From Pleurocapsa minor GSE-CHR-MK 17-07R (lineage in GTDB: Bacteria; Chloroflexota; Anaerolineae; Aggregatilineales; Phototrophicaceae), in the NCBI GenBank assembly GCA_019359125.1, contig JAHHHY010000001.1:124001-188000 (forward strand): a DNA stretch of 64,000 nt, written 5' to 3'. The stretch's first letter is position 1, and every line of letters begins with the position of its first letter. The notes under the pieces were generated by a model. The model had not been told where the DNA came from. It searched no databases and saw nothing but the letters and a program-made list of their open reading frames with translations. Positions 25,953 through 44,920 of this stretch are shown piece after piece. The translations under genes and the position numbers were made by a program.

Positions 25953-28900
25953 CTACTTTTTGCCACCCACCAGACCGGCCAGACGTTTGTGCAGCGGGTG
26001 CAGCAGTGAGAATGCGACCGGCACCACCAGCAGCGTCAGCAGCGTGGAGCTGAACAGGCCGCCGATGACCACCGTGCCCAGCTCGCTGGCGATGATCGCG
26101 CCTTTCGACAGGCCGACGGCCAGCGGCATCAGCGCGCCAATGGTGGCCAGCGCGGTCATGATGATCGGGCGCAGACGGCGCTGTCCCGCTTCCAGCAGCG
26201 CGTCATATACATTCATATGGCGTTCGCGCATGTTGCTTTGCACGCGGTCGATCAGCACGACGGCATTGGTCACCACAATGCCGATCAGCATCAGCAGGCC
26301 GATGAGCGCCGAGATACCCAGCACGCGGTCTGTCAGGGTGAGCAGGATCGCCGCGCCCACCGGAGCCACGATAATGCTGAGGATGATATCCAGCCAGTGC
26401 ACCACCGACCGGAACGTCAGCATCAGCAGCGCGACCACGATGACGATGGCAATGCCCATCGCCACGAACAGGTTGGCGAAGCCCTGTGTCTGGAGCTGAG
26501 TTTCATAGCCTTCGCTGACGGTGATTGACGCCGGCAGGTCAGGGATGCCGAGCACAGCTTCCTTTGCCGCGGCGGTCACGCCCAGCGTATTCTGTGTTTC
26601 CAGTTCGGCTGTGTAGCGCAGGGCAGCCTGACCGTCAATGCGGATATAGGTCGGGGGTGCGTCGTCCCCGGCCGCACCGCCGAAGCCGGCCAGATTACTG
26701 CGCACGTTAGACAGGCCTTCCACTTCTTCCAGTGTGGCCACGACGGTGTCATTGGCGGCTACCAGATCCGCCTGTTCACCGGCCAGCACGAGCGCGAATC
26801 CGCCGAATCCCTGTTCAGACAGCGAGGCCGCCGAGACGGACACGTTGCCCACGCCGAAGATGTCTTCAGCCGCGGCACGCAGTTCGCCTGTCAGTGAGTC
26901 GAGCAGGCCCTGATCTTCAATCGCGATGGTGATCGAGGCGATATTTTCACTGACGCCGCCGCCGCCCGTCAGCAGGCTTTGCAAATTGAAACCGGCACTG
27001 CCGACGATCGTCTGCACGCGGCTGACTTCGCCTGCTGGCAGGTCTTCCGCAATGAAGGCTTCAAGCTGCTCCACCAGCGGGTTCAGCTCGGTGATTTTGG
27101 TGCCAGGGGGCATGCTCACTGCCACGCTGATCTGCGGCTCGCCGAAGCTGGGCAGGAAGGCTTGGGGACGACCGGCAAACAGCGCCCCGCCAACCACCAG
27201 CGACAGGAAGGCGAATACCAGCACGATCAGCTTGTGCGCTGGTTTGTCCAGCGCCCACTTCAGGGCCGGGCGATACAGGCGTTCGAGGGCGCCGTCGTGG
27301 GCCTCTTCGGCCATTTCTTCCTTGCTCAGCAGCAGATAGGCGACGACCGGCACAGCGGTGATGGCGACGACGAACGAAGCCAGCAGCGCATAAGTGACCG
27401 CCAGACCGAACGGCAGGAAGAACTCGCCGATGATGCCGCCGGTCAGGCCAAGCGGCAGGAACACGACCACGGTGATGACCGTCGCGGCGAAAATGGCCAC
27501 CGACACGTCACGCACGCCGGCGATGATGGCGGTACGCTTGTCTTCGCCTTCCTGAATCTGGCGGAAGATGTTTTCCAGCACCACGATCGAGTCGTCTACC
27601 ACGCGGCCAATCGCCACGGTGAGGCCGCTGAGCGTCATGATGTTGATGGTCAGGCTTTCCGGGAACAGCCGGATGAGGAAGGTCAGCAGGGCATTGCCTT
27701 CTGCGACCGGGGCCAGCACGCCATTGACGGCGGGCGGCAGCCAGCGCATCAGCGCCATCGCCATCAGCACGCTGAGCGGGATGCTCACGCCGGTGACGAT
27801 CGTGCTGCGCCAGGCCGGGCGCGGCAGGTTGCGCGGCCACAGGATGATGAACAGGCCGGCGCCGATGCCCAGAATCAGCATGGCGCGATAGAGCACGTCA
27901 GTCTGGTCCCACGCGGCGGTCAGGTCGCCGCCGGTTGTGGCTGCTGTCGAAGTGACGAGCAGCGCCAGCACCACCAGGAAGATCGCGACCAGAACCGCGC
28001 CCGTGATGCGGCGCGGGCTGAACGACCAGATGCCGCTGCTGAGGAAGATCAGGATGACGACGACGGCGAACACGGCGCCGAGGCCGCCTTCGCGGGCGAC
28101 GCCGCTGATCGATTCCTCGATGAAGCTGGCCTGCTCGAAGGACACGGCCAGCTCGATATTCGGATACTCGGCCAGGACTTCCTCAACGGCGTCTTCGGCC
28201 AGGTGATAAGCTTCGACGGTATTGGCGTCTCCATCCTTATAGACGGTGATGAACAGGCTGTTCTGGCCGTCCGTGCGCGTGACCGGATTGCTGGGCGAGA
28301 ACGGTGCCGCGCCGCTGACCGCGCGATCCTGCACGCTTTGCGGCAGGGCGGCCAGAGCTTCCGGCGTCATCAGTTGCAGGCCTTCGATGCGCACGCCGTC
28401 AAACAGCGCCGGGTCGCGCCCGATCATGTAGGTCACGGCTTCGGGCGTCAGTCCGCCGTACAGGTTGGGCGCAAAGGCCGCCCCGTTGGCAGTGTCGAAG
28501 AAGCTGTTCAGGAAGTTGGTTGGATCGGGGAAGAAGCGGAAGAAGTCATCCGCGCTGTTCAGCTCCACGCCGATGAAATCGCCCACGAACTGCCAGTCGT
28601 CCGTCAGCGCGGGGGCGTTCGGGTCGGCGGGCGGGGCATCGGTCGTGTACAGCTCGGCCAGGGCCGCTGCGGCTGAGGGCTGTTCACCGGAGATAATGGC
28701 GGCGATGCTGTCGCGCACATCCGCATCCAGCCCGGCGGTCACATCTTCGGGGATCAGGGCGAGCGCAGTGGGCGACAGCTTGCCAATCACCTGAGCATCA
28801 AGCTCAGCGTAGAAGTCGTCAGGCTGCTGGAGCGCGAAATAGCGCAGCGTGGCCGGCGTCAGGCTGTCGAACAGGCGCACTTCGTAGCCGCCGAAGCCTT

Positions 28901-30827
28901 CCGGCACGGTGGCATTGATGGTGTTCAGCACGCTCGATGCGCTGCCATCGCCCAGCGCGATGATGTCGGCGGCGGTGCGCAGCGGGCGCGCGGCAAACTG
29001 CGGCTGATTGGCCAGCGTATTCCACACGCCATCCAGCACGGGGGCCAGCTCGGGACGGCTGAGCACATCGTCGCTGAAGGCATTGAAGACATCCGGGGAA
29101 ATCGTAGTCAGGAAGGTTGGATCATTTTCCGCGATGAAGCTGATGGCGTCGGCGCTGATCGTGCTGATCAGATCGGCCGGATTGATCGGAATCTGCGGGG
29201 CTTCCACGCCTTCAGGCAGGGCAGAGGGATCGCTGAGCAGCAGCAGGAAATTGAGCAGTTGCGCGCCGCTCAGCTCTGATGCGCCAAACTGGGATGCCAG
29301 ATTTTCGGGAAGCTGCACCAGCACCAGGTCATCGGCGCTGTTCAGCTCGACGCCGATGAAGGTGCCCAGCAGTCCGAAGGTGAACGGCAGGGCGGGGCCT
29401 TCCGGCAGCGTCTGCGCGTCAGTCGTCTCGTTCTGCGCGACATCGTCCGTGCCAGACTCGCTGACGGGTGCCTCAGTCGGCGCGGTTTCCATGACGACTG
29501 CGCTGGTATCGGCGATGCTGAAGGTGGCCAGCGGCAGGTCATCGAAGCTGAAGGTAATCAGCGATGGCGGCGAAATGCGCCATGCAGCGGGCAGATCGAC
29601 CGGCGCGGGCGCGGCGTCTTCACCGGTGATGCTGGCGGCCAGTGCACGCGCGGCCAGCTCGTCACGGGTGAAGCCATCCAGGCCGGCAATGAAGTCGGCG
29701 GGCAGTGCGGCGAACACGTCAGCCGACATGGCCGCCAGATGCTCTGCCTTGAAGTATTCGACCATGGTGGGGTCGATGGCCAGCATCTGCGTGATCGTGT
29801 CGGGCGTCAGGTCGTCGGTCTGGCCCAGGGAGCCAGTGATGGTGCCCTGGGTGGCGAAGGTATTGAATACAGCGCCGATGGTACGCGTCAGCGAGCGCAT
29901 TTCGATCAGGTCGCTGGCCGTGCTGAAGTGATCGACCTGCCAGCTTTCCGGCAGCGCCGGGGCCGTTTCAGGCAGGGCGACTTCCAGCGCAAGGGCCTCA
30001 GCGGCGGCATCGTCCAGCGGGCCGGTGTAACCGACTTTGGCGGAGACGACGGCCCACACTTCAGGCGAAAGCTGGAGCATCACACTGCGCGGCTCGGTAT
30101 CTGACGGGGGTGCTGAGACGGGCATCATACCGTTTTCGTCGGGCAGGGCCTGGCCACCGCTGACGCTGGTGGTGCCGATCTGGGCCAGATTTTCCAGCGC
30201 GGGCACGATTTCCTGGTCTACCAGCTGGCGCAGCGCCGAGTCTGCGGTGCCGCCCTGCAGCGTGGACGCCATGTAGCCCAGCAGCGTCGTGACGGTGTCG
30301 TCGCTCAGTTTGCTCCACACGTCCGGCGACAGCTGGAACAGGAAGTTGGAGTCGCGCTCTTCAATATAGAGCAGCACGTCGGCAGGCAGGTCAACCAGAA
30401 GCTGATCGGCGAAGGCCTGCACATCTGCCCCGTCGGCTGGCGCGATGCGGCGCAGCGGCAGCCACACGGTGTCGATGGCGGCGACAATCGCATCCTGAAT
30501 CCGGTCCTGATTCTGGCCGAAGTCGTTGCGGGCGGTGATGACCGCCCCGAACGAGCCGGTTGTGGTGGATTCAAGATTGGCCACCTGCGGCACTTCATCG
30601 ATGGCAGCTTCCAGCCGCTCGGTGACGATGCTCAGGACCTGGTCGCTCGTCATGCCGCTGGCCTGGGCGAGGATGATGGTCTGCGGGAAAGAGACCGCAG
30701 GGATCAGTTCCTGGCGCAGCTGCGTGATAGCGACGATGCCCGCGATGGAGACGAGCGCAGATAAGATAAGCGTGATCCACTTAAATCTAAGCGATAACGC
30801 AGTGATGCGAGCGAAGAAGTTCTTCAT
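25953..30827 (-). CDS. RND-superfamily exporter with a greatly enlarged first extracytoplasmic domain
   Basis: Inner-membrane proton-driven transporter of the AcrB/MdtB type. TM1 is at residues about 14-34 (FKWITLILSALVSIAGIVAI). TM2-TM6 follow from about 910, including VAIGRVVDDSIVVLENIFRQ, with the Asp pair of the proton relay. The second periplasmic half and TM7-TM12 follow, ending in IGLLMLIGIVVTNAVVLID. Total length is 1624 aa against about 1030 for AcrB; nearly all the excess lies between TM1 and TM2. The insert contains recurring units (LSPDVWSKLSDD, LSPEVWAVVS, ISPDVFNAFSDD) and the exact string FIGVELNSADD twice, about 260 residues apart. No membrane-fusion or outer-membrane partner is adjacent. 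Confidence 0.9.
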   Translation of the reverse strand: MKNFFARITALSLRFKWITLILSALVSIAGIVAITQLRQELIPAVSFPQTIILAQASGMTSDQVLSIVTERLEAAIDEVPQVANLESTTTGSFGAVITARNDFGQNQDRIQDAIVAAIDTVWLPLRRIAPADGADVQAFADQLLVDLPADVLLYIEERDSNFLFQLSPDVWSKLSDDTVTTLLGYMASTLQGGTADSALRQLVDQEIVPALENLAQIGTTSVSGGQALPDENGMMPVSAPPSDTEPRSVMLQLSPEVWAVVSAKVGYTGPLDDAAAEALALEVALPETAPALPESWQVDHFSTASDLIEMRSLTRTIGAVFNTFATQGTITGSLGQTDDLTPDTITQMLAIDPTMVEYFKAEHLAAMSADVFAALPADFIAGLDGFTRDELAARALAASITGEDAAPAPVDLPAAWRISPPSLITFSFDDLPLATFSIADTSAVVMETAPTEAPVSESGTDDVAQNETTDAQTLPEGPALPFTFGLLGTFIGVELNSADDLVLVQLPENLASQFGASELSGAQLLNFLLLLSDPSALPEGVEAPQIPINPADLISTISADAISFIAENDPTFLTTISPDVFNAFSDDVLSRPELAPVLDGVWNTLANQPQFAARPLRTAADIIALGDGSASSVLNTINATVPEGFGGYEVRLFDSLTPATLRYFALQQPDDFYAELDAQVIGKLSPTALALIPEDVTAGLDADVRDSIAAIISGEQPSAAAALAELYTTDAPPADPNAPALTDDWQFVGDFIGVELNSADDFFRFFPDPTNFLNSFFDTANGAAFAPNLYGGLTPEAVTYMIGRDPALFDGVRIEGLQLMTPEALAALPQSVQDRAVSGAAPFSPSNPVTRTDGQNSLFITVYKDGDANTVEAYHLAEDAVEEVLAEYPNIELAVSFEQASFIEESISGVAREGGLGAVFAVVVILIFLSSGIWSFSPRRITGAVLVAIFLVVLALLVTSTAATTGGDLTAAWDQTDVLYRAMLILGIGAGLFIILWPRNLPRPAWRSTIVTGVSIPLSVLMAMALMRWLPPAVNGVLAPVAEGNALLTFLIRLFPESLTINIMTLSGLTVAIGRVVDDSIVVLENIFRQIQEGEDKRTAIIAGVRDVSVAIFAATVITVVVFLPLGLTGGIIGEFFLPFGLAVTYALLASFVVAITAVPVVAYLLLSKEEMAEEAHDGALERLYRPALKWALDKPAHKLIVLVFAFLSLVVGGALFAGRPQAFLPSFGEPQISVAVSMPPGTKITELNPLVEQLEAFIAEDLPAGEVSRVQTIVGSAGFNLQSLLTGGGGVSENIASITIAIEDQGLLDSLTGELRAAAEDIFGVGNVSVSAASLSEQGFGGFALVLAGEQADLVAANDTVVATLEEVEGLSNVRSNLAGFGGAAGDDAPPTYIRIDGQAALRYTAELETQNTLGVTAAAKEAVLGIPDLPASITVSEGYETQLQTQGFANLFVAMGIAIVIVVALLMLTFRSVVHWLDIILSIIVAPVGAAILLTLTDRVLGISALIGLLMLIGIVVTNAVVLIDRVQSNMRERHMNVYDALLEAGQRRLRPIIMTALATIGALMPLAVGLSKGAIIASELGTVVIGGLFSSTLLTLLVVPVAFSLLHPLHKRLAGLVGGKK

Positions 30828-31044: not shown

Positions 31045-31818
31045 ATGGCTTCAATTATCTCGATTCATTCGTTTCGAGGCGGTACTGGCAAGTCGAATAT
31101 TGCGGCAAACCTGGCTTATGTGCTGGCCCAGCGCGGTCGGCGTGTCGGCATTATCGATACAGACGTGCAGTCACCTGGTGTCCATGCGATTTTTGGACTG
31201 CGCGGGGATTCATTCAGCCGTGCGCTGAACGATTATCTGCTGGGGCGTGCGCCCATCAGCGAGGCCGTCTATCCGCTGGGCGATGGCTCGCGCACGGGCC
31301 ATGAATACCTGGCAGGACTGCCGCTGTTTCTGATTCCCTCCAGCATCCATGCCAGCGAGATTGCGCAGGTGCTGCACGAGGGCTATGATGTCGGCCTGCT
31401 GAATGACGGGTTTTATACGCTGATCGACGCCCTGGCGCTGGATGTGCTGATTATCGACACGCATCCGGGGCTGAACGAGGAAACGCTGATGTCGATCGCA
31501 GTGAGTGATTCGCTGTGCGTGATTCTGCGCCCGGACGAGCAGGATTACCAGGGCACGGCGGTGACGGTCGATATCGCGCGCAAGCTGGATGTGCCGGGCA
31601 TGGTGCTGGTGGCCAACAAAGTGCCGTCGCGCGTGTCGAAGGATGAGCTGAGCGCCCAGCTTGAGAAGGAATTCACCGTGCCGGTGGCAGGGGTGCTGTA
31701 CCTGTCGGAAGACGTGGCCGAAAATGGAAGCCGCCACGTGTTCAGCGCGGTTTATCCGAATCATGCATTTACGCGGACGATAGAGGCACTCGCAGATCGC
31801 CTTACGGGAAAAACGTAA
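31045..31818 (+). CDS. MinD/ParA-like ATPase with variant Walker A
   Basis: SIMIBI-class ATPase related to MinD/ParA/FlhG. The N-terminus IISIHSFRGGTGKSN is a deviant Walker A in which the signature Lys (first position of KGGxGKS) is Arg. IDTDVQSPGVH (Walker A') and LIIDTHPGLNEETL (switch II/Walker B) are intact. The protein has no obvious C-terminal membrane-targeting amphipathic helix. It is a clear paralogue of the gene at 45148-45921: same length, and identical or near-identical segments such as EGYDVGLLNDGF and IDTHPGLNEETL. AGGGA lies 5 bases before the ATG. The role is unknown; the context suggests spatial organisation of, or signalling with, the downstream cyclase cluster. Confidence 0.85.
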   Translation: MASIISIHSFRGGTGKSNIAANLAYVLAQRGRRVGIIDTDVQSPGVHAIFGLRGDSFSRALNDYLLGRAPISEAVYPLGDGSRTGHEYLAGLPLFLIPSSIHASEIAQVLHEGYDVGLLNDGFYTLIDALALDVLIIDTHPGLNEETLMSIAVSDSLCVILRPDEQDYQGTAVTVDIARKLDVPGMVLVANKVPSRVSKDELSAQLEKEFTVPVAGVLYLSEDVAENGSRHVFSAVYPNHAFTRTIEALADRLTGKT

Positions 31819-31895
31819 AGGGTTCTGCGGCACCTTATTGCCTGTAAAATGGTGTTGCCTATACAATCAGTGTTACGTGGCGTTATGTACCGAAA

Positions 31896-32126
31896 GTGGC
31901 TAAGGGTATGGCGGGTGGATGTTGGACGTGTGACCGACCGGCAAATGCGAGCTGCAGGTTTTGCGGGCGCTTTGTCTGCAAGGATCACGCTTCGAAGATG
32001 CCGTTTATCCTGACAATTTACGTGGGCGCGAACAATACGCCCAAGGCCGTGATTGTCGCAGACGCAATCTGGTGCGGCATCTGCCGCCCACAGGGCGAAC
32101 CGATCGAAATGCCCGAGTTTTATTAA
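31896..32126 (+). CDS. Small zinc-finger protein, 76 aa
   Basis: Not recognised as a named family. It carries a dense set of metal ligands: CWTC, then CRFC eight residues later, CKDH, and CGIC near the C-terminus, a cross-brace arrangement like B-box or other treble-clef fingers. Start either GTG 31896 or ATG 31908 (AAGGGT just upstream of the latter). It lies between the MinD-like gene and a winged-helix-like gene in the same direction. Likely a protein-protein interaction module; function unknown. Confidence 0.65.
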   Translation: MAKGMAGGCWTCDRPANASCRFCGRFVCKDHASKMPFILTIYVGANNTPKAVIVADAIWCGICRPQGEPIEMPEFY

Positions 32127-32144
32127 CTAAAAGGTCGCTTTACT

Positions 32145-32507
32145 ATGCCCAGCCTATTCGACCACATCAACCGCGAGCTCAACGACGACGATTCGAAAGG
32201 CATCACGCCGCTGGAGCTGGCCGAGCTTCCTGCTGATCAGCGCCAGATTATGCTGGCCATGCTGCGCGACCAGGCTGGCCAGCAGGATGGCGTGGCGCGG
32301 GCGTTCCTGATCGACAAGTGGGTGGGCCGGGTGGCTGATGTGGATGGCACACTGAACCAGCTCGTCCATATGGGCCTGCTGATCATGATGGGTGAAACAC
32401 CCAATGAACGCTATCGGGTCAATCTGCGCCACAAGCGCGGCAGCAATGCAGGCTTCGGTCTGTGGAGCGTGCTTTCCGATCGGGTTCCTAAAGACCGCCT
32501 GACATAG
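32145..32507 (+). CDS. Small winged-helix-like protein, 120 aa
   Basis: Not recognised as a named family. The predicted helices ELAELPADQRQIMLAML, VARAFLIDKW and VDGTLNQLVHMGLLIMM, followed by a short beta-hairpin with ERYRVNLRHKRG, look like a degenerate winged helix in which a 'no. of lines to next step' domain predicts a strand-turn-strand wing. AAGG lies about 11 bases upstream of the ATG. It is 18 bases after the zinc-finger gene and 21 before the cyclase gene, so part of one transcription unit. A winged-helix-like small gene also lies beside the second MinD-like gene (46062-46568). Confidence 0.6.
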   Translation: MPSLFDHINRELNDDDSKGITPLELAELPADQRQIMLAMLRDQAGQQDGVARAFLIDKWVGRVADVDGTLNQLVHMGLLIMMGETPNERYRVNLRHKRGSNAGFGLWSVLSDRVPKDRLT

Positions 32508-32528
32508 TGGCAGCCCCGACAAATCCTC

Positions 32529-35500
32529 ATGACTGAAACTCTCACACAGCTCGAAACAGACCTGCAGCGGTTTTTGCCCGCCCAACTGCTTGAATCCCTC
32601 GATACCCCCGAAAGCCTGCGCGCCGCCCTTCAGCACCTGAACAGCCTGGAGCGCGCCGTCGTTTCTTTCCTGCCGTCGTATATCGCCGAGGACCGCACGC
32701 TGTTTGGCGAGTCTGCCGAGGCAGCCACGCGTGATGTGGGCATGCTGCGCGCCGGCATCTTCATGTTTGCCGATGTCAGCGGCTTCACCGCGCTGAGCGA
32801 AAAATTACAGCAGCGCAGCGGGGCTGTCGGCACTGAAGTGCTGACCGCCGTCATCAACCAGTACTTCGAAATCATGCTGGAAATTCTGGCGAAGTCTGAA
32901 GGGACGCTGCTGAAATTCGCTGGCGATGCGCTGCTGGCCTTCTTTCCGCAGGGGCGCAATCCTGAGAATATGACGCCGGCGCTGCAGGCGATTCGCTCTG
33001 GCCTGCGCATGCAGCGCGCCATGCGCGAGAAGTTTCAGCCGATTCGCCACGAACAGCTCACGGCACTGCTGGGCGATGACCACCAGTCTTCGCTGACAAT
33101 GTCGATCGGCATCGCGAAAGGGCGTCTGTTTGAGGCGCTGGTGGGCACGATGACGCAGCGCGACCATATTATCCAGGGCACGCTGCCCGGCGAAGCGATG
33201 GACGCCGAGGGCGTGGGCGAGCGTGATGAAGTGATTGTGCCGCCGGACATCGCAGATGCTTTCCGTGACCGCTTTCGCTTCAAGCCACTGGATGAAGGCT
33301 ATTTCCAGGTCATCGACGATGTGCAGGACCTGGACGATTTTGAGACCACGCTGTTGCAGGTGCGCCGTCGTCAGGGCGTTGCCGCTGGCCTGCTCGATCT
33401 GGAGCAGGAAAATCTGCATGAGAGCCTGCAAAAACAGATCGACAAAGTGCGCCGGGTCTCGCTGTTTGTGCCACCGAGCGTGCTGGGCGGGCTGATTCAC
33501 AGCGAAGACCTGCATCTGCCGCGTGAAAATCGGTATACCGTGACGATGTTCATCCACGCCACCGGCTTTGCCGAGCTGCTGCACGATTGGGGTGAAGACC
33601 AGCTACAGCGCATCACCAATCTGCTCGATCGCTATTACAGCCTGGTGCAGCGCGTCACCAGCCAGTATGGCGGCACCCTGACGCGCACGGACCCGTATAA
33701 GCTGGGCTTCAAGCTGCTGACGACCTACGGTGCGCCGATTCAGCATACGGACGACCCGTATCGCGCGGTGTCTGCCGCGCTGGAGATGAATCACGCCCTG
33801 GAACAGTTTAATCTGCGCGTGCATGAGGAACTTCCCGCTGAATTGCGCCGACCGGTTTACGTGGAGCAGCGCATCGGCATCACGGTGGGCGAGACGTTCT
33901 CCGGCGAGGCAGGCTGGAAACAGCGGCGCGAATACACCGTCATGGGTGATGATGTGAACCTGGCCGCCCGCCTGATGGCCTACGCGAAATTTGGCCAGAT
34001 TCTGGTCAGTTCGCGCATCTACAAGCAGGTGAGCAGCTTTTTCAAGGCAGAGGCGCAGGCGCCCATTTCGCTGAAAGGCAAGAAGGCGCCGATTGATACG
34101 TATCTGGTCAGCGACACGCTGGAATCTGCCGGGATGCTGGAAGCGCAGGGCGAAATGCCCTTCATCGGGCATGAATTATTCATGCTCAAGCTGGACCTGC
34201 TGCTGCAACAGGCCCGATTTGGCAAGGTGAAAGCGCTGGCCCTGGTGGGCGATGCGGGCATCGGCAAGACGCGGATTGCGCGCCAGTTTGCCGAGATGGC
34301 CCGGGCGGCGAAGTTCCGTGTGGCGTGGGTGACCTGCCAGGCCCGCAGTCGTCGGGCGCTGTGGGCGACGCTGGCGGCGCAACTGCTGGATGTTGACCTG
34401 AATGGCCCGCCCGATGAGGCGCGCCGACAGTTTGAGGCGGCTGTCAGCGATGCGAAATTTGCCGATGTGCGCCGCCCGCTGAGCAACCTGTTGTTTGGCT
34501 TCACACCTGCCGAGACGAAATCTTCACCGCCGCCGTCGGCACCTGCCGCGCCCGCGGAACGACCGAAGCTGAACGATATGTTCGCGATGGTGCAGGCTAT
34601 GAGCAAGGATGAGATGAAAAAAAGCGGCATGTTTGGCCTGATGCGCCGCACGCTGGAGTCATCGGCTGCCGAAGACACATCTGCCAGCAAGAGCGGGTTT
34701 TATGCCTCGGCGGACAAGGCGACCAGTTTTGAATATGCCATCATGCGTCTGGTTATGCTGGCCTGTGCCGCCCAGCCGACGCTGCTGGTGCTGGATGACC
34801 TGCAGAATGCCACGGACGACTCGGTCAATATCCTGCGCCGCGCACTCAAGGAAATGACACGCGGCCAGCTCGTCGTGCTGATGACTTACGAGCCGATGAG
34901 CGTGTCGCTGGATGTGAAGTCCGAAGTGGTGCCAGACCTGGGCGAAGACGAGACCCTGCGCGTGGCGATGGCGAATCTGCATGCCTCTGACCTGGGCCCC
35001 CGCCTGCGCACGCTGTTATGGCAGCGCACCAGTGGCCGCCCGCTGTATATCGAGTCCTTGATTCGTACCCTGCAGGACAATCAGTTCATCGAGATGAGCA
35101 GCGGCGTGGCAGAGCTGACGCCCGGCGCCGATGTGGACGCCTTGCCGGACGATGTGCGCCAGATGGTCGTCAGCCGCGTGGACCGGCTTAGCCCGGATGC
35201 GCAGTCACTGGTGCGAGTTGCCGCCGTGCTCGGGTTTGAGATTACACGTCACGCTCTGGAGACGATCGGGGAGTACACCGATGCTGACCAGTTCGCGCGG
35301 CTGATGGATGAGCTGATCCAGTCGCAGATTATCGAATCGGACGGGTCAGACCAGTACGAGTTTCGTCATGGCATGACAGGCTCGGTGATTTATGGCACGT
35401 TGTCACGCGCCCAGCGGGCCAAGCTGCACCGCACCGCCGCCGAATATTATCGCCAGCGCGCGCAGGAGTCGGCCGGGATGGCCGTGGCTGCCGGGTATCA

Positions 35501-35687
35501 CCTGTCCAAGTGCGGGCTGCTGCCACGCGCGATTGAACTGCTTCAGCAGGTGGCCGATGAGGCGGAAGCCGGTGGGAAGCTGGCGATGGCGCACGATATC
35601 ATCCGCTATGCAGTCTCGCTGATGCCCGATGACCACACCCTGAATGCGCGCCTTCAGACACTCGATAAGTCCGCATCTGGCCTGTAG
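32529..35687 (+). CDS. Class III nucleotide cyclase, two complementary catalytic domains plus STAND-type ATPase
   Basis: Predicted cytoplasmic adenylyl cyclase resembling mammalian soluble AC in layout. Domain C1 (about 70-255) has the metal-binding motif MFADVSGFTALSEKL and LLKFAGDALLAFF, but lacks the Asn/Arg transition-state motif. Domain C2 (about 330-510) has lost the metal Asp (MFIHATGFAEL) but retains REYTVMGDDVNLAARLM with Asn and Arg. One composite active site from C1 and C2 is therefore expected. An AAA/STAND-like ATPase follows: Walker A VGDAGIGKT near 575, Walker B LLVLDDLQNA near 753, then a winged-helix and TPR-like end. Cyclic-nucleotide-binding proteins encoded at 36.9-39.4 kb are likely receptors. 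cAMP rather than cGMP is inferred from the Lys in LLKFAGD. Confidence 0.88.
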   Translation: MTETLTQLETDLQRFLPAQLLESLDTPESLRAALQHLNSLERAVVSFLPSYIAEDRTLFGESAEAATRDVGMLRAGIFMFADVSGFTALSEKLQQRSGAVGTEVLTAVINQYFEIMLEILAKSEGTLLKFAGDALLAFFPQGRNPENMTPALQAIRSGLRMQRAMREKFQPIRHEQLTALLGDDHQSSLTMSIGIAKGRLFEALVGTMTQRDHIIQGTLPGEAMDAEGVGERDEVIVPPDIADAFRDRFRFKPLDEGYFQVIDDVQDLDDFETTLLQVRRRQGVAAGLLDLEQENLHESLQKQIDKVRRVSLFVPPSVLGGLIHSEDLHLPRENRYTVTMFIHATGFAELLHDWGEDQLQRITNLLDRYYSLVQRVTSQYGGTLTRTDPYKLGFKLLTTYGAPIQHTDDPYRAVSAALEMNHALEQFNLRVHEELPAELRRPVYVEQRIGITVGETFSGEAGWKQRREYTVMGDDVNLAARLMAYAKFGQILVSSRIYKQVSSFFKAEAQAPISLKGKKAPIDTYLVSDTLESAGMLEAQGEMPFIGHELFMLKLDLLLQQARFGKVKALALVGDAGIGKTRIARQFAEMARAAKFRVAWVTCQARSRRALWATLAAQLLDVDLNGPPDEARRQFEAAVSDAKFADVRRPLSNLLFGFTPAETKSSPPPSAPAAPAERPKLNDMFAMVQAMSKDEMKKSGMFGLMRRTLESSAAEDTSASKSGFYASADKATSFEYAIMRLVMLACAAQPTLLVLDDLQNATDDSVNILRRALKEMTRGQLVVLMTYEPMSVSLDVKSEVVPDLGEDETLRVAMANLHASDLGPRLRTLLWQRTSGRPLYIESLIRTLQDNQFIEMSSGVAELTPGADVDALPDDVRQMVVSRVDRLSPDAQSLVRVAAVLGFEITRHALETIGEYTDADQFARLMDELIQSQIIESDGSDQYEFRHGMTGSVIYGTLSRAQRAKLHRTAAEYYRQRAQESAGMAVAAGYHLSKCGLLPRAIELLQQVADEAEAGGKLAMAHDIIRYAVSLMPDDHTLNARLQTLDKSASGL

Positions 35688-35781
35688 CTGTCGCAATCGG
35701 GTCCCTTAAAGAGTATATTTTCAGCATAAACGGCACTTTTTGCCCAGCCAGCGCGACACATACTGCGTAAGGACGATATGG

Positions 35782-36321
35782 ATGTTTCTGAACGCCAGCG
35801 ATGAACACCTGGCAAGGAAGGCGCAAGTGGGCGACCGCGAGGCCTTTTTCGCGCTCTACAACCGCTATTTGCAGCGCGTATACAATCGTGTGAGGAGCAA
35901 GATCCCGCCACAGGACGTGGATGATGTGACGCAGGAAGTATTTCTGGCAGTCGTGCGTTCGCTGGAAGGGTATGAGCATCGCTCGCGCTTCAATACATGG
36001 TTGTACACGATCGTCAACCGGCAGATCGCTGATTTCTATCGTCGGCGCAGCCGCACCGATCGTACGCAGAATGTGGAGCTGGATGACGAGCTGGAAGATG
36101 TGGCAGGTGGCGCGCAGGTGGATGCTGCGGATCAGCGGATGGTTATTCAGCGCGCGCTGAATGCCATTCCCGAGCATTATCAGGAAATCATCCTGATGCG
36201 CTTTTCTGATGGCCTGACTTTTGCCGAGATCGCCGAGCAGAGGGGACAAAGCCTGGAAGCCGTAAAGTCTCTGTATCGTCGCGCAATTCAGGCCGTACGC
36301 GATCACATGGGTGAAGGTTAA
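35782..36321 (+). CDS. ECF-family RNA polymerase sigma factor
   Basis: Sigma factor with only regions 2 and 4. Region 2 spans HLARKAQVGDREAFFALYNR to DVDDVTQEVFLAV and FNTWLYTIVNRQIADFYRR. Region 4 spans ALNAIPEHYQEIILMRFSDG and TFAEIAEQRGQSLEAVKSL, a typical helix-turn-helix. ATG 35782 was chosen because AAGGA lies 8 bases upstream; this gives 179 aa. The next gene starts immediately after its stop and encodes a membrane protein with the layout of an anti-sigma factor. The cyclase gene ends 94 bases upstream. Confidence 0.93.
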   Translation: MFLNASDEHLARKAQVGDREAFFALYNRYLQRVYNRVRSKIPPQDVDDVTQEVFLAVVRSLEGYEHRSRFNTWLYTIVNRQIADFYRRRSRTDRTQNVELDDELEDVAGGAQVDAADQRMVIQRALNAIPEHYQEIILMRFSDGLTFAEIAEQRGQSLEAVKSLYRRAIQAVRDHMGEG

Positions 36322-36774
36322 ATGATGGACAACGATCGCAATCTCGATGAAAAGCTGGCGCGCCTGACGGATGCTGTGCTGAACGACCAGTCGGTGTCCG
36401 CCGAAGACGACGAGGAAGGCCTGGCGGATGTGGTGCGCGCTGTGTCGCGCGTGGCCGGCAAACAGGCTGGGCCGCCGCCTGCGCTGGATACACGCCTGCG
36501 GGCTGCTCTGACGACTGAGTTCGACGCGCTGCAAAAACACCGCCGTCCGGTGACGCGTTTCCCGCTGCCGATGCTGGCTGCCGCCGCCGCGTTCGTCCTG
36601 GTGGCTGTGGTCGTGCTCTCGTCTGTGACCCAGGGGACCCCGATTAACCTGGCTGGCACGGCGGTAGGGGCAGGCGATGGCAGTACGACTGAGCCGGGTA
36701 CGGTTCTGTTTGCGTTGCTGCTGCTGGGTGCTGTGGGAGCCGGTCTGTACTGGGTCGTGCGCCGCCGAAAATAG
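36322..36774 (+). CDS. Putative membrane anti-sigma factor
   Basis: 150-aa protein starting directly after the ECF sigma stop codon, the usual position of the cognate anti-sigma factor. A cytoplasmic acidic helical domain (1-80) precedes TM1 (about 82-102, MLAAAAAFVLVAVVVLSSV), a short extracytoplasmic Gly/Thr loop (about 103-125), and TM2 (about 126-146) with a basic tail RRRK. No HxxxCxxC zinc anti-sigma motif is present. Assignment rests on position and topology. The small extracytoplasmic loop would be a plausible site for PrsW-type cleavage by the next gene product. Confidence 0.7.
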   Translation: MMDNDRNLDEKLARLTDAVLNDQSVSAEDDEEGLADVVRAVSRVAGKQAGPPPALDTRLRAALTTEFDALQKHRRPVTRFPLPMLAAAAAFVLVAVVVLSSVTQGTPINLAGTAVGAGDGSTTEPGTVLFALLLLGAVGAGLYWVVRRRK

Positions 36775-36811
36775 CGATGTTTCCGCGTGTATGCGGCTGC
36801 AAAATGCCAAT

Positions 36812-36840
36812 TTGCTTGCACATCGCGTCGTTTCCATAAT
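36812..36840 (+). promoter_or_regulatory. Candidate promoter upstream of PrsW-CNB gene
   Basis: TTGCTT at 36812-36817 and CATAAT at 36835-36840 with a 17-bp spacer, in the AT-rich 117-base gap after the anti-sigma gene. It would allow the protease genes to be transcribed apart from the sigma/anti-sigma pair. Confidence 0.4.
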
Positions 36841-36891
36841 AATTAACTGCTAATCATCATTCTCCACCATCGCGAGACGGATCATAGACGT

Positions 36892-38706
36892 ATGTCCATC
36901 AGCATCCTCATCGGCGTCGGTATTTCTCTGGCTGTGCCGCTGTTTGCCCTCTACCTCATCAACACGTTTGACACTTTCCAGACCGCCAAACGCAGTAGTC
37001 TGCTGGCAAATCTGGTGTGGGGCATCGTCGCCTTTGGCCTGGCCTATGTGATCAACACGGCTGTGCGCAATGTGCTGATCAGCGGCGCAGACCTGAGCAC
37101 AGCAGATGCGCTGGACATCATCCGGCGGGTGTCTGCGCCCATTGTGGAAGAAGTCCTCAAAGGGCTGTTCTTATTGTGGCTGATTACGCGCCCCAGCTTT
37201 CGCTATCTGGTGGACGGGGCCGTGTATGGTCTGGCGGCCGGATTCGGCTTCGCTATCATCGAGAACATCTTCTACCTGTCCAATAATCCTGGTGTGGCGC
37301 TGACGCTGGCGGCCACGCGCGCGCTGAGTACCTCGATGATGCATGGCGTGGCCACGGCCATCGTCGGCATATCGCTGGGCATGCTGCGCCGTTCCAGCAG
37401 CCGCCTGCCTGTCACCGCGATTGTGGGCATTCTGGTGGCCATGATCGTGCATATCGTGTTCAACAATGTGGTGAACACGCTGACCGGCACGGTGCTGCTG
37501 CTGGTGGCGATTGGCCTGGGGCTGGGTGGTGCTGCCTTTATCGGCGTGCAGGTGCAGCAGAATATCCGGCTGGAAAAACAGCGCATGGGCGATGCCCTCC
37601 TGAACGAGCAATCTGGCGTTTCGCGCGGCGAGGTGATGGCGATCCAGCGGCTGGGCGAAGGCTCGACCGGCCTGATGGAATCGCTGGTGAAAGAGCTGGG
37701 CGACGAGTATCTGGATCAGGTGCGTCGGTTGCTGGTGACGCAGGCGAATATCGGCATCCTGAAGAACAATCTGGCGATGGGGAACGTGTCTGCCCGCCTG
37801 CGCAAGGCGTGGGAGGATGAGATCGAGACGCTGGAAACCGAATTCCAGTCGATCCGCCAGTCGCTGAACACCGGCGTGGCGTCATTTCTGGATAAGGCCT
37901 TTCCGTCGAATGACCCGGATATGTCGAAGTGGTTACACGACAGCCTGGCCAAAGACGATCCGACCTTGCTGAACACGTTCGACCTGTTCATGTTCCAGTC
38001 TGGCCTGGCCGCCGAGTTCACGCCGGAACAGCTGGTCGCGCGGGCCGAGCGCCTGCAGCGCGTCGAGATTTTCAGCGGTGTGGACGTGGTCAATCTGGAA
38101 AACCTGGGCCGCTCGATTGAAATCGAGACGATTGATCCCGGCAAAATCCTGTTTGACCAGGGCGATGATGGTGATGCGATGTACCTGGTCGAATCCGGCA
38201 GCATCGACATTTTCTCGGTGGAAAATGGCGAACAGAAATTCCTCCGCAAGTTCGTGGCCGGGCAGGTGGTGGGCGACTTTGCGGTGCTGGACGGCCTGCC
38301 CAGGTCAGCACGTGCCCGCGCTGGCACAGAGTCCCCGCTGGTCGCGCTGATCCTGAAACGCGACAATTTCCGCCGCTTCGTGCAAAGCCGCCCGCAGGTG
38401 ATTCTGCCGATTCTGCGCGTACTGGGCGAAAAGGCGCGTTTTACGACAGCCACGGTGGAAACCACCGTGAATTCGCTTCATAGTCTCGCCGTGGGCGACT
38501 TCGCCGCAATAACGCCAGCGCCAGCGGCCCCACGCGCCACCGCTGTGACAACTGCGGAGATGGTCGCCGCTATGCCCATCGCGGATGCGGATGCGGAAGT
38601 GGATTCGGAACTGTCGTTCGGGGTAGGCAGTACACTGGCGGATACATTTGCACGGCTGGCATCCACCTTGCAGGCCAGCGCACCAGTCGCTGATACGGGC
38701 AAGTGA
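36892..38706 (+). CDS. PrsW-type intramembrane protease fused to a cyclic-nucleotide-binding domain
   Basis: Residues 1 to about 225 form a polytopic PrsW/CAAX-like metalloprotease: SAPIVEEVLKGLFLLWL (EExxK), YGLAAGFGFAIIENIFY (GxxFxxxEN) and MMHGVATAIVGI with HIVFNNV (metal His). PrsW is known in Bacillus subtilis as the site-1 protease of anti-sigma RsiW. A helical linker (about 230-390) leads to a CNB domain (about 385-520) with PGKILFDQGDDGDAMYLV and the phosphate-binding cassette GDFAVLDGLPRSARA, retaining the Arg and Ser that contact cyclic phosphate, with Asp replacing the usual Glu. A Pro/Ala-rich low-complexity tail follows. It lies next to an ECF sigma/anti-sigma pair and a nucleotide cyclase. 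Confidence 0.87.
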   Translation: MSISILIGVGISLAVPLFALYLINTFDTFQTAKRSSLLANLVWGIVAFGLAYVINTAVRNVLISGADLSTADALDIIRRVSAPIVEEVLKGLFLLWLITRPSFRYLVDGAVYGLAAGFGFAIIENIFYLSNNPGVALTLAATRALSTSMMHGVATAIVGISLGMLRRSSSRLPVTAIVGILVAMIVHIVFNNVVNTLTGTVLLLVAIGLGLGGAAFIGVQVQQNIRLEKQRMGDALLNEQSGVSRGEVMAIQRLGEGSTGLMESLVKELGDEYLDQVRRLLVTQANIGILKNNLAMGNVSARLRKAWEDEIETLETEFQSIRQSLNTGVASFLDKAFPSNDPDMSKWLHDSLAKDDPTLLNTFDLFMFQSGLAAEFTPEQLVARAERLQRVEIFSGVDVVNLENLGRSIEIETIDPGKILFDQGDDGDAMYLVESGSIDIFSVENGEQKFLRKFVAGQVVGDFAVLDGLPRSARARAGTESPLVALILKRDNFRRFVQSRPQVILPILRVLGEKARFTTATVETTVNSLHSLAVGDFAAITPAPAAPRATAVTTAEMVAAMPIADADAEVDSELSFGVGSTLADTFARLASTLQASAPVADTGK

Positions 38707-38717
38707 GGCAAAATACG

Positions 38718-39359
38718 ATGACGACAGCCATAGCGCATGCACAGGTTGAGGAACTGCAAAAATTCGCCCTGTTCAGGTCCGTCTCTCCTCAAGCACTGGA
38801 GGACCTGATAAAAGTCTTGCAGGAACGGCATTACCCGGCAGGGCATGTGCTCTTTCGGCGTGGCGACCCGGGCGATAGTATGTATCTGGTGCGCAGCGGC
38901 CGTGTTGCCATCTTTCTGAGCGGGGATAATGGCTCGGATATTGTGTTTCGGCATTATGGCGCCGGCCAGGTGGTGGGCGAGTTTGCGCTGCTGGACGACA
39001 AGGAACGCAGCGCCTCGGCCCGCGTGGATGATCCGTGCGACGCCTGGGTGCTGAGCAAGGCGGACTTTCTGCGCCTGGTGAACGAACGCCCGATTTTCGG
39101 CGTGGAGCTGATGCGCGGCCTGAGCGAGCGCGTGCGCTATACCACTGATTATCTGCGCCGTCTGAACGGTGCTGTGGAACTGCTGATTAACAACGATTAT
39201 GAGCGTGCGCTGTCTGAAATGACTGCCTCTGCCGCCGACGACGAGATTCAGGGCCTGATTACGGCGTTTGTCGAGGTCGTGCGATCGATGCAGCGCCGCC
39301 AGAAAGACTTCCGTTCCGCCAGTGCGCGCCCGCGCATGGAACTGGACCAGGGTGACTGA
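38718..39359 (+). CDS. Stand-alone cyclic-nucleotide-binding protein (no HTH)
   Basis: CNB domain at residues about 15-130: AGHVLFRRGDPGDSMYLVRSG, then the cassette GEFALLDDKERSASARV, whose Glu, Arg and Ser match the cAMP-contacting residues of CRP (E72, R82, S83 in E. coli). The C-terminal 80 residues are helical and charged, with no helix-turn-helix, so it is not a CRP-type transcription factor. ATG 38718 has GAGG ten bases upstream; a GTG at 38703 overlapping the previous stop is an alternative. It follows the PrsW-CNB gene directly and shares the sequence pattern of its CNB domain (both have VAGQVVG/GAGQVVG before the cassette). Confidence 0.88.
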   Translation: MTTAIAHAQVEELQKFALFRSVSPQALEDLIKVLQERHYPAGHVLFRRGDPGDSMYLVRSGRVAIFLSGDNGSDIVFRHYGAGQVVGEFALLDDKERSASARVDDPCDAWVLSKADFLRLVNERPIFGVELMRGLSERVRYTTDYLRRLNGAVELLINNDYERALSEMTASAADDEIQGLITAFVEVVRSMQRRQKDFRSASARPRMELDQGD

Positions 39360-39481
39360 TTTCCTCGAAATTGTGTGAATATGGTAAATTTTTTGAGGAT
39401 TATCGAACCAATCTGGTCGAATAAGACGACAGAATAGCTGTAATGTGTTTAACTGTATAGCAGAGGGAAGGGGTAATCGCA

Positions 39482-40087
39482 ATGAAGAGGCGCGACATTG
39501 CCTTTTTGGCGTTTGGTGGTGTCCTGGGATTGGTGGTTGCACTTGTGCTGCTGACCAGCCCGGATATTCAACGCGCCTTGTCTGGCACGGCCATGGGCAT
39601 TGATGCAGAGCCAGCTTACCTGATCGTGGATAACGAGCAGGCGCAGCAGTGGCTGCTTTCGGTCTATCCCGATGATGAAGAGGCCATCCTTTCGGCATTC
39701 GCCAATGCGGGTCGCCTGGCCACGACGACCACCTTTCCTGAAACATTCCGCGAAGTGGAAGCCGATATCAATCAGTTATCAGACCGTGCTTTTGCGGCAC
39801 TGACCGGACGTCTGCCCGATGCAGATGCTGAGCCGTCGTTTGCGCTGCCGGATGCGCTGCTGACGGATACGGCGGCTGGAGACATCGTGTCGTGCGTGGG
39901 GCTGGATGAAAACCCGTACAACTTTGATGGCTACAGCGTTGAGCTTTATATGGAGATTCCGTCCACACAGCTGGTGAATCTGCCGTCTGAGTGGGCGACA
40001 CATGACGATCCAATGAGTCGGAGTCTTTTCTGGCAGCGGCTGGCATGCCACGCGCTGACAGGGGACATGGGGGAGAGGAGTCGGTAG
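39482..40087 (+). CDS. Hypothetical single-pass exported protein
   Basis: Not recognised. An N-terminal hydrophobic helix (residues about 7-25, FLAFGGVLGLVVALVLLTS) acts as signal anchor; the remaining 175 residues are acidic and include two Cys (VSCVGLD and LACHALTGD). GGGAAGGGG lies about nine bases before the ATG. It precedes the giant repeat protein gene by 66 bases in the same direction and may be part of the same unit. Function unknown. Confidence 0.7.
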   Translation: MKRRDIAFLAFGGVLGLVVALVLLTSPDIQRALSGTAMGIDAEPAYLIVDNEQAQQWLLSVYPDDEEAILSAFANAGRLATTTTFPETFREVEADINQLSDRAFAALTGRLPDADAEPSFALPDALLTDTAAGDIVSCVGLDENPYNFDGYSVELYMEIPSTQLVNLPSEWATHDDPMSRSLFWQRLACHALTGDMGERSR

Positions 40088-40153
40088 CCTATGGAATGAT
40101 GCGACAGGTTATGCATCGACCGTACTGGTTTCAATCGTTAGGAGTTTGAGTAT

Positions 40154-44920
<4,767 letters not shown>

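Follow-up and report, generated by a model that had tools for sequence, protein, structure and literature searches.

PrsW is a founding site-1 protease and, to our knowledge, the signal that switches it on in Bacillus is not settled. In the published accounts of B. subtilis, an extracytoplasmic function (ECF) sigma factor, SigW, is paired with a membrane anti-sigma factor, RsiW, which is cut by a motif-bearing PrsW acting as the site-1 protease and then by a site-2 protease. Here we describe a related gene cluster in a window (i.e., the whole stretch of DNA analysed) of 64,000 nt, positions 124,001–188,000 of its contig, in the 4.85 Mb genome of Pleurocapsa minor GSE-CHR-MK 17-07R (Chloroflexota, class Anaerolineae). 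In this cluster a PrsW protease with a C-terminal cyclic-nucleotide-binding (CNB) domain is encoded close to an ECF sigma factor, a candidate anti-sigma factor and a nucleotide cyclase, and we predict that it represents a variant of SigW/RsiW/PrsW-type proteolysis with a cytoplasmic input. Unlike B. subtilis PrsW, the PrsW of the cluster carries or adjoins a CNB domain and has a helical middle domain. Unlike RsiW, the candidate anti-sigma factor has two transmembrane (TM) segments, a short outer loop and no Cys, and, unlike the SigW/RsiW/PrsW genes, the cluster is accompanied by genes for a ParA ATPase, two small proteins (zn72 and s120) and the cyclase.

Some elements of this arrangement have been described before. 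A passage on domain fusions in a 2012 paper (PMC3482391) lists PrsW fused to PilZ, cyclic nucleotide-binding, FHA and Zn-ribbon domains, and regards the protein as more likely a signalling peptidase. The combination of PrsW with CNB, and the broader notion of a signalling peptidase that responds to a domain fused to it, are therefore to be found there, whereas the linked ECF gene, the cyclase, the gene cluster and the substrate motif are not part of that passage. The Leptospira protein LIC_20173 (PMC12943098, 2026) is a PrsW-PilZ protein. It resembles the present case in that PrsW is joined to a cytoplasmic nucleotide-messenger domain and cleavage of an anti-sigma factor has been proposed, but it has a non-canonical PilZ domain in place of CNB, and the relevant passage names no linked ECF locus. 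SpoIVFB, with its cytoplasmic CBS domain, is likewise an intramembrane protease in a sigma pathway, although, as described in the section concerned (PMC9042235), it belongs to the site-2 metalloprotease family and cuts pro-sigma K itself rather than an anti-sigma factor. A preliminary description of the window, made from its sequence alone, had proposed that a cyclic nucleotide made by the cyclase opens or closes PrsW and so releases the sigma factor, and had stated that no described system was known to gate PrsW by a cyclic nucleotide. Because of the PrsW-CNB and PrsW-PilZ passages (PMC3482391, PMC12943098), in which both the architecture and the general idea are already in print, that statement was too strong for the architecture; the ECF circuit, on the other hand, is undescribed in those passages. 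Our literature searches did not find the ECF/anti-sigma/CNB/cyclase/ParA cluster, the promoter or the shared motif described below, although the hyphenated spelling used in some of them may miss unhyphenated mentions.

Composition and conservation of the cluster

The five genes named in the preliminary description were all present on the plus strand. The first encodes a class III nucleotide cyclase of 1052 aa (32529–35687) with a C1-C2 layout followed by AAA_16, resembling soluble adenylyl cyclase (PF00211 in two stretches, 7.7e-24; AAA_16, 1.5e-16). It is followed by the ECF sigma factor (open reading frame (ORF) 35740–36321; PF04542, 9.4e-16; PF08281, 5.1e-12; TIGR02937 over its cut-off). 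Comparison with relatives suggests that the likely start is the ATG at 35782, giving a protein of 179 aa (35782–36321), which conforms to the family definition in having sigma regions 2 and 4 only and a fold matching sigmaE, CnrH and SigW. The two-TM candidate anti-sigma factor (36322–36774) begins 0 bp after the ECF stop. PrsW (36892–38706, 604 aa) has the protease domain (PF13367, 4.3e-28, 98.6 bits against a cut-off of 23.5), the helical middle domain and the C-terminal CNB domain (PF00027, 1.3e-15, 57.6 bits against 27.5). The last ORF, which shares 4 bp with the end of the PrsW ORF, encodes a stand-alone CNB protein of 218 aa (38703–39359; PF00027, 3.8e-25, 88.1 bits against 27.5) with the cassette GEFALLDDKERSASA.

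Conservation was assessed in a set of related loci. At E ≤ 1e-20, the query P0001 had matches in 42 of the 396 class genomes (the CNB part alone matched in two). We fetched 55 neighbourhoods from these class matches, and added 80 named loci obtained by scanning GTDB species. That scan gave 124 pattern matches, of which 108 were confirmed and 80 kept, and as it used a single pattern distant relatives can be missed. By their titles, the relatives that it found were Chloroflexota, except for one record labelled Actinomycetota, the nearest including an Aggregatilineales metagenome-assembled genome (MAG). Rows that did not differ over 200 residues of PrsW were removed, and the final set comprised 108 loci with PrsW and the middle domain, 35 with the CNB domain fused to PrsW and 73 unfused; these differ by at least one residue in the 200-residue PrsW stretch, and near-copies therefore remain. 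Flank lengths vary, and in 60/108 loci each flank is 5 kb or longer. Genes were called as the longest ORF with a bonus for profile matches, and because of this some ECF genes were missed. The final CNB counts used a CNB-domain-only profile, a wider early profile having also matched a C-terminal tail of other proteins.

Co-conservation, which the preliminary description had placed first among its own tests, held in this set. A same-strand ECF gene lay within 8 kb in 49/108 loci, and in 46 of these 49 the next gene encoded a two-TM protein, the pair being upstream of PrsW in all 46. There was no gene between the two-TM protein and PrsW in 26 of the 46 loci and one gene in 17, while in 36 of the 46 a CNB domain was fused to PrsW or encoded by the next gene. 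The genome of the window contains 14 matches to its ECF sigma factor (itself included), 9 CNB matches and 2 PrsW matches, as well as 8 cyclase-domain matches, 2 of which are the cluster cyclase. From the 14 ECF matches in 4.85 Mb, simple arithmetic gives a chance expectation of about 0.05 ECF genes within 8 kb of PrsW, so the neighbourhood occurs more often than by chance. The middle domain was found in 17 of 400 sampled genomes of the phylum, all being its own genome or in the same class (the share of other classes among the 400 is not shown). Matches to 252 plasmid records in PLSDB were obtained, none covering 80% of the query; among the 20 matches listed, they span residues 309–533, on the CNB side.

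Further evidence comes from gene fusions. When the fused label was mapped onto a tree built from the 108 PrsW+middle sequences, at least four changes were required, three of them forced by well-supported branches, and none of 500 shuffles of the label gave a count as low as that observed. The main fused clade contains 31 rows, the window included, whereas L105, L050 and L108/L109 are placed among unfused relatives. The tree cannot separate gain from loss of the fusion. However, as the fusions in L050, L108 and L109 share a C-terminal tail with the stand-alone CNB proteins of relatives, joining of the two genes is a natural reading. In L060 a CNB domain is fused to ParA, and by profile PrsW is apparently fused to s120 in L118 (6352–7830) and L143, both being MAGs titled Anaerolinea thermophila. 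These fusions (CNB-PrsW, CNB-ParA and PrsW-s120) link the products physically, independently of gene order.

The C-terminal tail, approximately EIDxxxRxxQVxEITxTDYFxxLxxKARxLR, stands at the end of 29/52 stand-alone cluster CNB proteins, and also ends 16 other proteins in the same loci, which by reading are HAMP/GAF-like sensors. It occurs, for example, in L053 (15947–16894 and 16946–18043) and L059 (8506–10515) and in the CNB proteins of many loci. In the L060 fusion it stands directly before ParA, and one possible role is that of a peptide to which the ParA ATPase docks.

Upstream of the cyclase gene in the window, and on the same strand, lie three genes that were absent from the preliminary description and that, in unfused loci, accompany PrsW more often than ECF does. 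These encode a ParA/MinD-type ATPase of 257 aa (31045–31818; PF01656, 1.4e-17; PF13614, 3e-15), zn72, a Cys/His-rich, zinc-finger-like protein of 72 aa (31908–32126, read from the ORF, with a weak C5HCH match of 0.0009, below that profile's cut-off), and s120, a conserved protein of 120 aa (32145–32507) that is winged-helix-like by eye only and gave no match in a Pfam scan. The Walker A region of ParA reads FRGGTGKS in the window, and likewise in the other cluster ParA proteins inspected, i.e., they have Arg where the usual ParA/MinD signature Lys stands. A typical unfused cluster has the order ECF, the two-TM protein, a propeller lipoprotein, PrsW, CNB, ParA, zn72 and s120, with the cyclase on the other strand. 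The divergent neighbour of ParA in the window (25953–30827) encodes a protein of 1624 aa that by reading is an RND-type transporter; a homologue occupies the same place in L036 (66% identity) and apparently also in L088 and L089.

The sigma pair and the ligand and catalytic residues

The candidate anti-sigma factor consists of a cytoplasmic N-terminal domain, TM1, a short extracytoplasmic loop, TM2 and a C-terminal RRRK sequence, with no sizeable domain outside the membrane. It contains no Cys and no zinc motif; the zinc signature of class I ECF anti-sigma factors is Hx3Cx2C. Anti-sigma groups that have no zinc domain do exist (PMC7406223). A PEP-CTERM sorting signal was considered for this protein and rejected (16.7 bits, under the cut-off of 20.7).

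As the anti-sigma gene continues in the reading frame of ECF, we folded the two products as one chain reading through the stop, using a 60-row alignment with 7 paired rows. The model had a predicted local distance difference test score (pLDDT) of 86.6 and a predicted TM-score (pTM) of 0.74. Residues 11–70 of the anti-sigma candidate (chain residues 191–250) had pLDDT values of 87–97 per block, with flanking blocks at 81 and 76, while the outer loop was partly below 50. On comparison with PDB entries 4cxf, 5wuq and 5wur, the modelled sigma part was similar to CnrH in its complex with CnrY (TM-score of 0.68, by target) and to SigW in its complex with RsiW (0.61–0.63), in which sigma2 and sigma4 are similarly arranged; polymerase-bound sigma factors aligned with root-mean-square deviations (rmsd) above 20. 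A VIA fold search gave Z values of 12.8 for CnrH and 12.6–12.8 for SigW, tied with sigma-2-only rows of up to 13.8; its rows mostly span residues 2–180 and say nothing on the anti-sigma part. The sequence of the anti-sigma candidate is not recognisably related to CnrY or RsiW, and it has no zinc motif. The read-through model provides support, not proof, for an ordered anti-sigma domain beside the sigma factor; by its position and this model, the two-TM protein is a candidate anti-sigma factor for its neighbour.

The second structure predicted was that of PrsW-CNB (pLDDT 85.9, pTM 0.60). Its modelled CNB domain resembled CRP and GlxR, with an rmsd of about 2 over about 144 columns, CNB ion channels heading the match list, and can be described as a predicted CRP-like CNB domain. 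Ligand-contact residues are present in both CNB cassettes of the window, i.e., D462 and R471 in PrsW-CNB, and Glu and Arg in the stand-alone protein. Both proteins also have a CNB profile match over the cut-off, and belong to the domain as defined by that match, the acidic residue and the Arg. The possibility that they are CRP-like (CRP/FNR) transcription factors was rejected, no helix-turn-helix family matching either protein at E values up to 0.1. The acidic residue and Arg were retained in all 18 fused CNB domains with ECF or anti-sigma genes nearby (5 Asp, including the window, and 13 Glu). Of the 17 fused domains without such genes nearby, 10 form one clade in which Arg is absent in 10/10, and the remaining 7 have Arg, L100 among these being gapped at the acidic position. 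The Arg-less orphan clade (L034, L035, L039, L042, L045, L048, L049, L114, L122 and L163) is a natural control for ligand binding. Among stand-alone CNB proteins encoded within 200 bp of PrsW, Arg was present in 42/43 rows, the remaining CNB being truncated by the end of its contig, and one row had Gln at the acidic position.

The cyclase had been called soluble-adenylyl-cyclase-like, and this was borne out by its complete composite active site and AAA_16. Class III cyclases of that type have the metal-binding Asp residues in C1 and Asn and Arg in C2, with an NTPase domain after them, a definition with which the window cyclase agrees at the sequence level (FADVSGF and KFAGD in C1; EYTVMGDDVNLAAR in C2). 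C1 is present in 42 of the 44 cluster cyclase rows, always with the two metal Asps, and 43/44 rows carry Asn and Arg in C2. Judged from these residues, the cluster cyclases hold one composite active site, as do the soluble and transmembrane adenylyl cyclases.

In PrsW, residues E86, E87, K90, E124, H151, H187 and N191 were invariant across 22 aligned sequences. The protein therefore has, in addition to PF13367, the four motifs by which the family is defined (EE..K, F...E, H and H...N; PMC12943098, in the passage on motifs), although it scored 49.5 bits against the B. subtilis-type equivalog NF033739, below the cut-off of 225. Hydropathy indicated 7 TM segments, and the loop charges were read as N-out/C-in, which would place the CNB domain inside the cell and the EE motif and H187 toward the outer face.

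The promoter motif and a shared juxtamembrane motif

Expectation maximization (EM) on 53 of the 59 de-duplicated ECF upstream regions, the window's included, yielded the motif rACCCTTTTT-N12-CGACTAA, with a log-likelihood ratio of 289 compared with 112.5–126.9 in six shuffles; the latter were single-base shuffles analysed in fewer and shorter EM runs (12 starts, against 40 starts plus refinement for the real set). An earlier count of dyads upstream of genes was dominated by near-copies and was replaced by this motif. The candidate ECF-dependent promoter in the window is GGCACTTTTT-N12-CGACACA (35732–35760, plus strand, 16.6 bits in a window scan). A second match lies on the minus strand of the window at 55169–55197 (13.5 bits).

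At 12 bits or more, the motif preceded 29/53 ECF genes (the training set), 10/55 propeller genes and 16/558 other genes, with only 0–1 per set for genes encoding ParA (100), zn72 (52), s120 (69), cyclase (44), anti-sigma (54), PrsW (95) and CNB (80) proteins. A position weight matrix gave 86 matches of at least 15 bits in 1.73 Mb: 36 before a called ECF gene, 9 before a propeller gene, 14 before another gene, 2 before a cyclase or anti-sigma gene, and 25 before no called gene. In ten whole genomes chosen from the 42, a strict form of the motif gave 8 matches in 5 genomes, against 0 for the reversed control. Three of the 8 were before ECF genes, three before an FAD-type oxidoreductase gene within about 8 kb of the cluster, and two elsewhere. 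The checks outside the training set comprise only these two out-of-cluster sites and an operon in genome G212. In L058, L063 and L066, an FAD-dependent-oxidoreductase-like gene near the cluster was preceded by the motif at 21–23 bits.

Downstream of the CNB gene in the window are two genes (39482–44920) that we consider to belong to the module. The first, s201 (39482–40087, plus strand), encodes an exported single-TM protein with SGTAM after the TM segment, and is a probable regulon member. The second (40154–44920, plus strand) encodes an exported TM-anchored protein of 1588 aa, with LSGSGV after the TM segment, a Pro/Thr-rich stalk and a PD40 β-propeller (1.2e-39 over the C-terminal 359 aa). 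A weak candidate sigma site, GAACC...CGAC, lies before s201 (39405–39433, plus strand). The sites before s201 relatives scored 24.7 (L089), 19.0 (L208), 14.5 (L099) and 7.6 bits (L088, with the same spacing as the window), while the homologue in L209 and the second copy in the genome of the window (L207) had no promoter site. This second copy of the s201-propeller operon (G000:C13:221475-229663; L207 10976–19164) encodes an s201 protein that is 92% identical and a propeller ORF of 2505 aa, with a different CNB protein upstream.

Many of the proteins encoded behind the promoter motif have a short motif after the TM segment or lipobox Cys (e.g., LSGAGG, LFGTAG and LQGAAG), and the loop of the anti-sigma candidate carries a similar one, LSGTAV in L040 and GTAV in the window (residues 112–115, codons at 36655–36666), a candidate protease recognition motif. 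Occurrences within 24 residues of the TM end were counted after de-duplication and compared with the remaining TM proteins of these loci. The motif was drawn up with the proteins already in view and was widened once, and Fisher values are descriptive. In its first form, [GN][TS]A[GVAM], it was present in 8/23 promoter-motif TM proteins, 19/57 anti-sigma proteins and 2/40 propellers, against 8/240 others. With G[TSA][AG][GV] the counts were 15/20, 17/53, 19/38 and 7/207, with G[TSAG][AG][GVS] they were 15/20, 25/53, 26/38 and 10/207, and with the loosest form 16/20, 39/53, 27/38 and 32/207, respectively. Both out-of-cluster promoter matches precede genes for motif-bearing lipoproteins (LLPGAGGV and FLSGTGGG), the second of which starts 254 bp downstream of the site, beyond our limit of 250 bp, and was found by looking further. 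Among the 61 loci with ECF or anti-sigma genes nearby, the same-strand upstream TM neighbour of PrsW carried the motif in 30/49 cases, and among the 47 loci without them in 5/9 cases; in downstream TM neighbours it occurred in 0/8. The motif is a candidate for the site recognised by PrsW.

The proposed circuit and its alternatives

We propose that the cluster encodes a regulated-proteolysis circuit with a cytoplasmic second-messenger input. The abutting two-TM protein would hold the ECF sigma factor at the membrane. The signal is probably read inside the cell, because the anti-sigma candidate is almost without an outer part, the soluble part of PrsW is inside, and the cluster often holds a cyclase. 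The C1-C2 cyclase would make a cyclic nucleotide, most likely cAMP, that would be bound by the CNB domain on PrsW or, in unfused clusters, by the adjoining CNB protein. The ligand-bound domain would switch PrsW via the helical middle domain, PrsW would make the site-1 cut at G-T-A-V in the short anti-sigma loop, and a site-2 protease, for which three M50 matches in the genome are candidates, would complete the breakdown together with soluble proteases, freeing the sigma factor. The latter would then transcribe its own operon from the promoter motif, as well as exported, membrane- or lipid-anchored proteins (s201 and the β-propellers) bearing the same juxtamembrane motif. We would give this chain as a whole about an even chance, ligand gating being its weakest link.

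Of the circuit in the preliminary description, the parts, order, co-conservation and PrsW motifs stood, while gating and cleavage keep their conditional form; to what was observed can be added the repeated fusion, the conserved catalytic and ligand residues, the promoter motif and the shared motif. Several points weigh against the proposal. Ligand binding, gating and its sign, cleavage and sigma release are steps that we infer. In 47/108 loci, no ECF gene and no gene for the two-TM protein turned up within 8 kb; for loci in which each flank reaches 5 kb, the same was true of 11/21 fused and 13/39 unfused ones. A cyclase was within 8 kb in only 43/108 loci, and was absent from the examined flanks of four g15 clusters (L037, L040, L043 and L046). 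ParA was a commoner neighbour in unfused loci than ECF or anti-sigma. The anti-sigma candidate does abut ECF and its N-terminal domain is predicted to be ordered beside the sigma factor, but none of the Pfam anti-sigma families matched it, and NF052375 scored 18.4 bits, below the cut-off of 100. The modelled sigma part fitted sigmaE with RseA, or AlgU with MucA, poorly (whole-length rmsd 10.9–12.4), and the read-through chain tethers both proteins and may favour contact, in what was a single fold without a control or predicted aligned error. PrsW-CNB of the window has Asp at the cassette position that is occupied by Glu in CRP and PKA. Eight TM segments, rather than 7, are reported for most PrsW proteins (PMC3482391), so that the 7-TM topology is provisional. 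The site before s201 in the window is weak (5.5 bits), and a large regulon in the window's own genome was rejected, a looser lineage pattern giving 7 matches against 17 for the reversed control; when the downstream genes were read by eye, ECF itself was the only fit.

A tentative extension, which we hold as possible but on the unlikely side, is that a single nucleotide-switched PrsW cuts two kinds of substrate that share approximately L-x-G-[TSAG]-[AG]-[GV]. These would be the anti-sigma factor, freeing sigma, and the surface proteins made under sigma, which would be released from their membrane or lipid anchor, with ParA, zn72 and s120 placing or assembling the machine. If so, one protease would set both the production and the shedding of the surface proteome, and competition between uncut surface protein and the anti-sigma factor could provide feedback.

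The likeliest alternative is that the core consists of PrsW with ParA, zn72, s120 and CNB, and carries out cyclic-nucleotide-responsive processing or release of surface proteins, ECF and anti-sigma being a lineage-specific addition that supplies those proteins, with a sigma factor that PrsW does not gate. It deserves a fair hearing because ParA is the commoner neighbour in unfused loci: within 8 kb, ParA was found in 59/73 of these, s120 in 56/73 and zn72 in 49/73, against 43/73 for ECF or anti-sigma. For loci in which each flank is 5 kb or longer, the values were 34/39 for ParA and 26/39 for ECF or anti-sigma. Moreover, L059, L072 and L076, which have no called ECF gene, keep PrsW, ParA, s120, cyclase and CNB, and the motif is carried by 5/9 upstream TM neighbours in loci without ECF or anti-sigma, three of the five being near-copies. 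However, when ECF is present its arrangement is fixed, the two-TM protein being next in 46/49 loci and upstream of PrsW in all 46. Fused loci favour ECF or anti-sigma (18/35) over ParA (10/35; s120, 11/35; zn72, 8/35), the corresponding values with 5 kb on both sides being 10/21 and 6/21, and the anti-sigma loop and the exported proteins have a common motif. Propeller genes occurred within 8 kb in 14/35 fused and 31/73 unfused loci. On balance we regard this alternative as unlikely.

It is more doubtful that the CNB domain has a structural or dimerising role and does not bind a nucleotide, PrsW sensing a membrane or envelope signal as in Bacillus. The orphan subclade without Arg (10/10 rows) and the Asp for Glu in the lineage of the window would suit this, but all 18 fused proteins linked to ECF have retained the acidic residue and Arg, the anti-sigma candidate has no sizeable outer domain, and a cyclase lies within 8 kb in 43/108 loci. 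Finally, it is improbable that type I signal peptidase makes the site-1 cut, as signal peptidases are described as doing for RsiP and RsiV (in a passage of PMC8844934), and that PrsW-CNB acts elsewhere, since, although G-T-A followed by G or V would supply the small residues at −3 and −1, by reading the motif follows the lipobox Cys in two out-of-cluster regulon lipoproteins, where signal peptidase I is not needed, and PrsW is in the same cluster, directly next to the two-TM protein gene in 26/46 loci.

In the nucleotide-switched circuit that we propose, the identity of the fused domain points to a candidate ligand, which makes the question of how PrsW is activated directly testable with purified parts. 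The shared motif provides a concrete, mutable hypothesis for the cleavage site, and a route to predicting regulon members and substrates in a class for which genetic tools are scarce. If the proposal is true, a cytoplasmic second messenger is linked to an ECF sigma factor via a membrane protease, in the opposite sense to the outside-in logic that is usual for ECF signalling. In the Anaerolineae, an internal messenger such as cAMP would then switch on genes for cell-surface proteins by causing an inhibitor to be cut.

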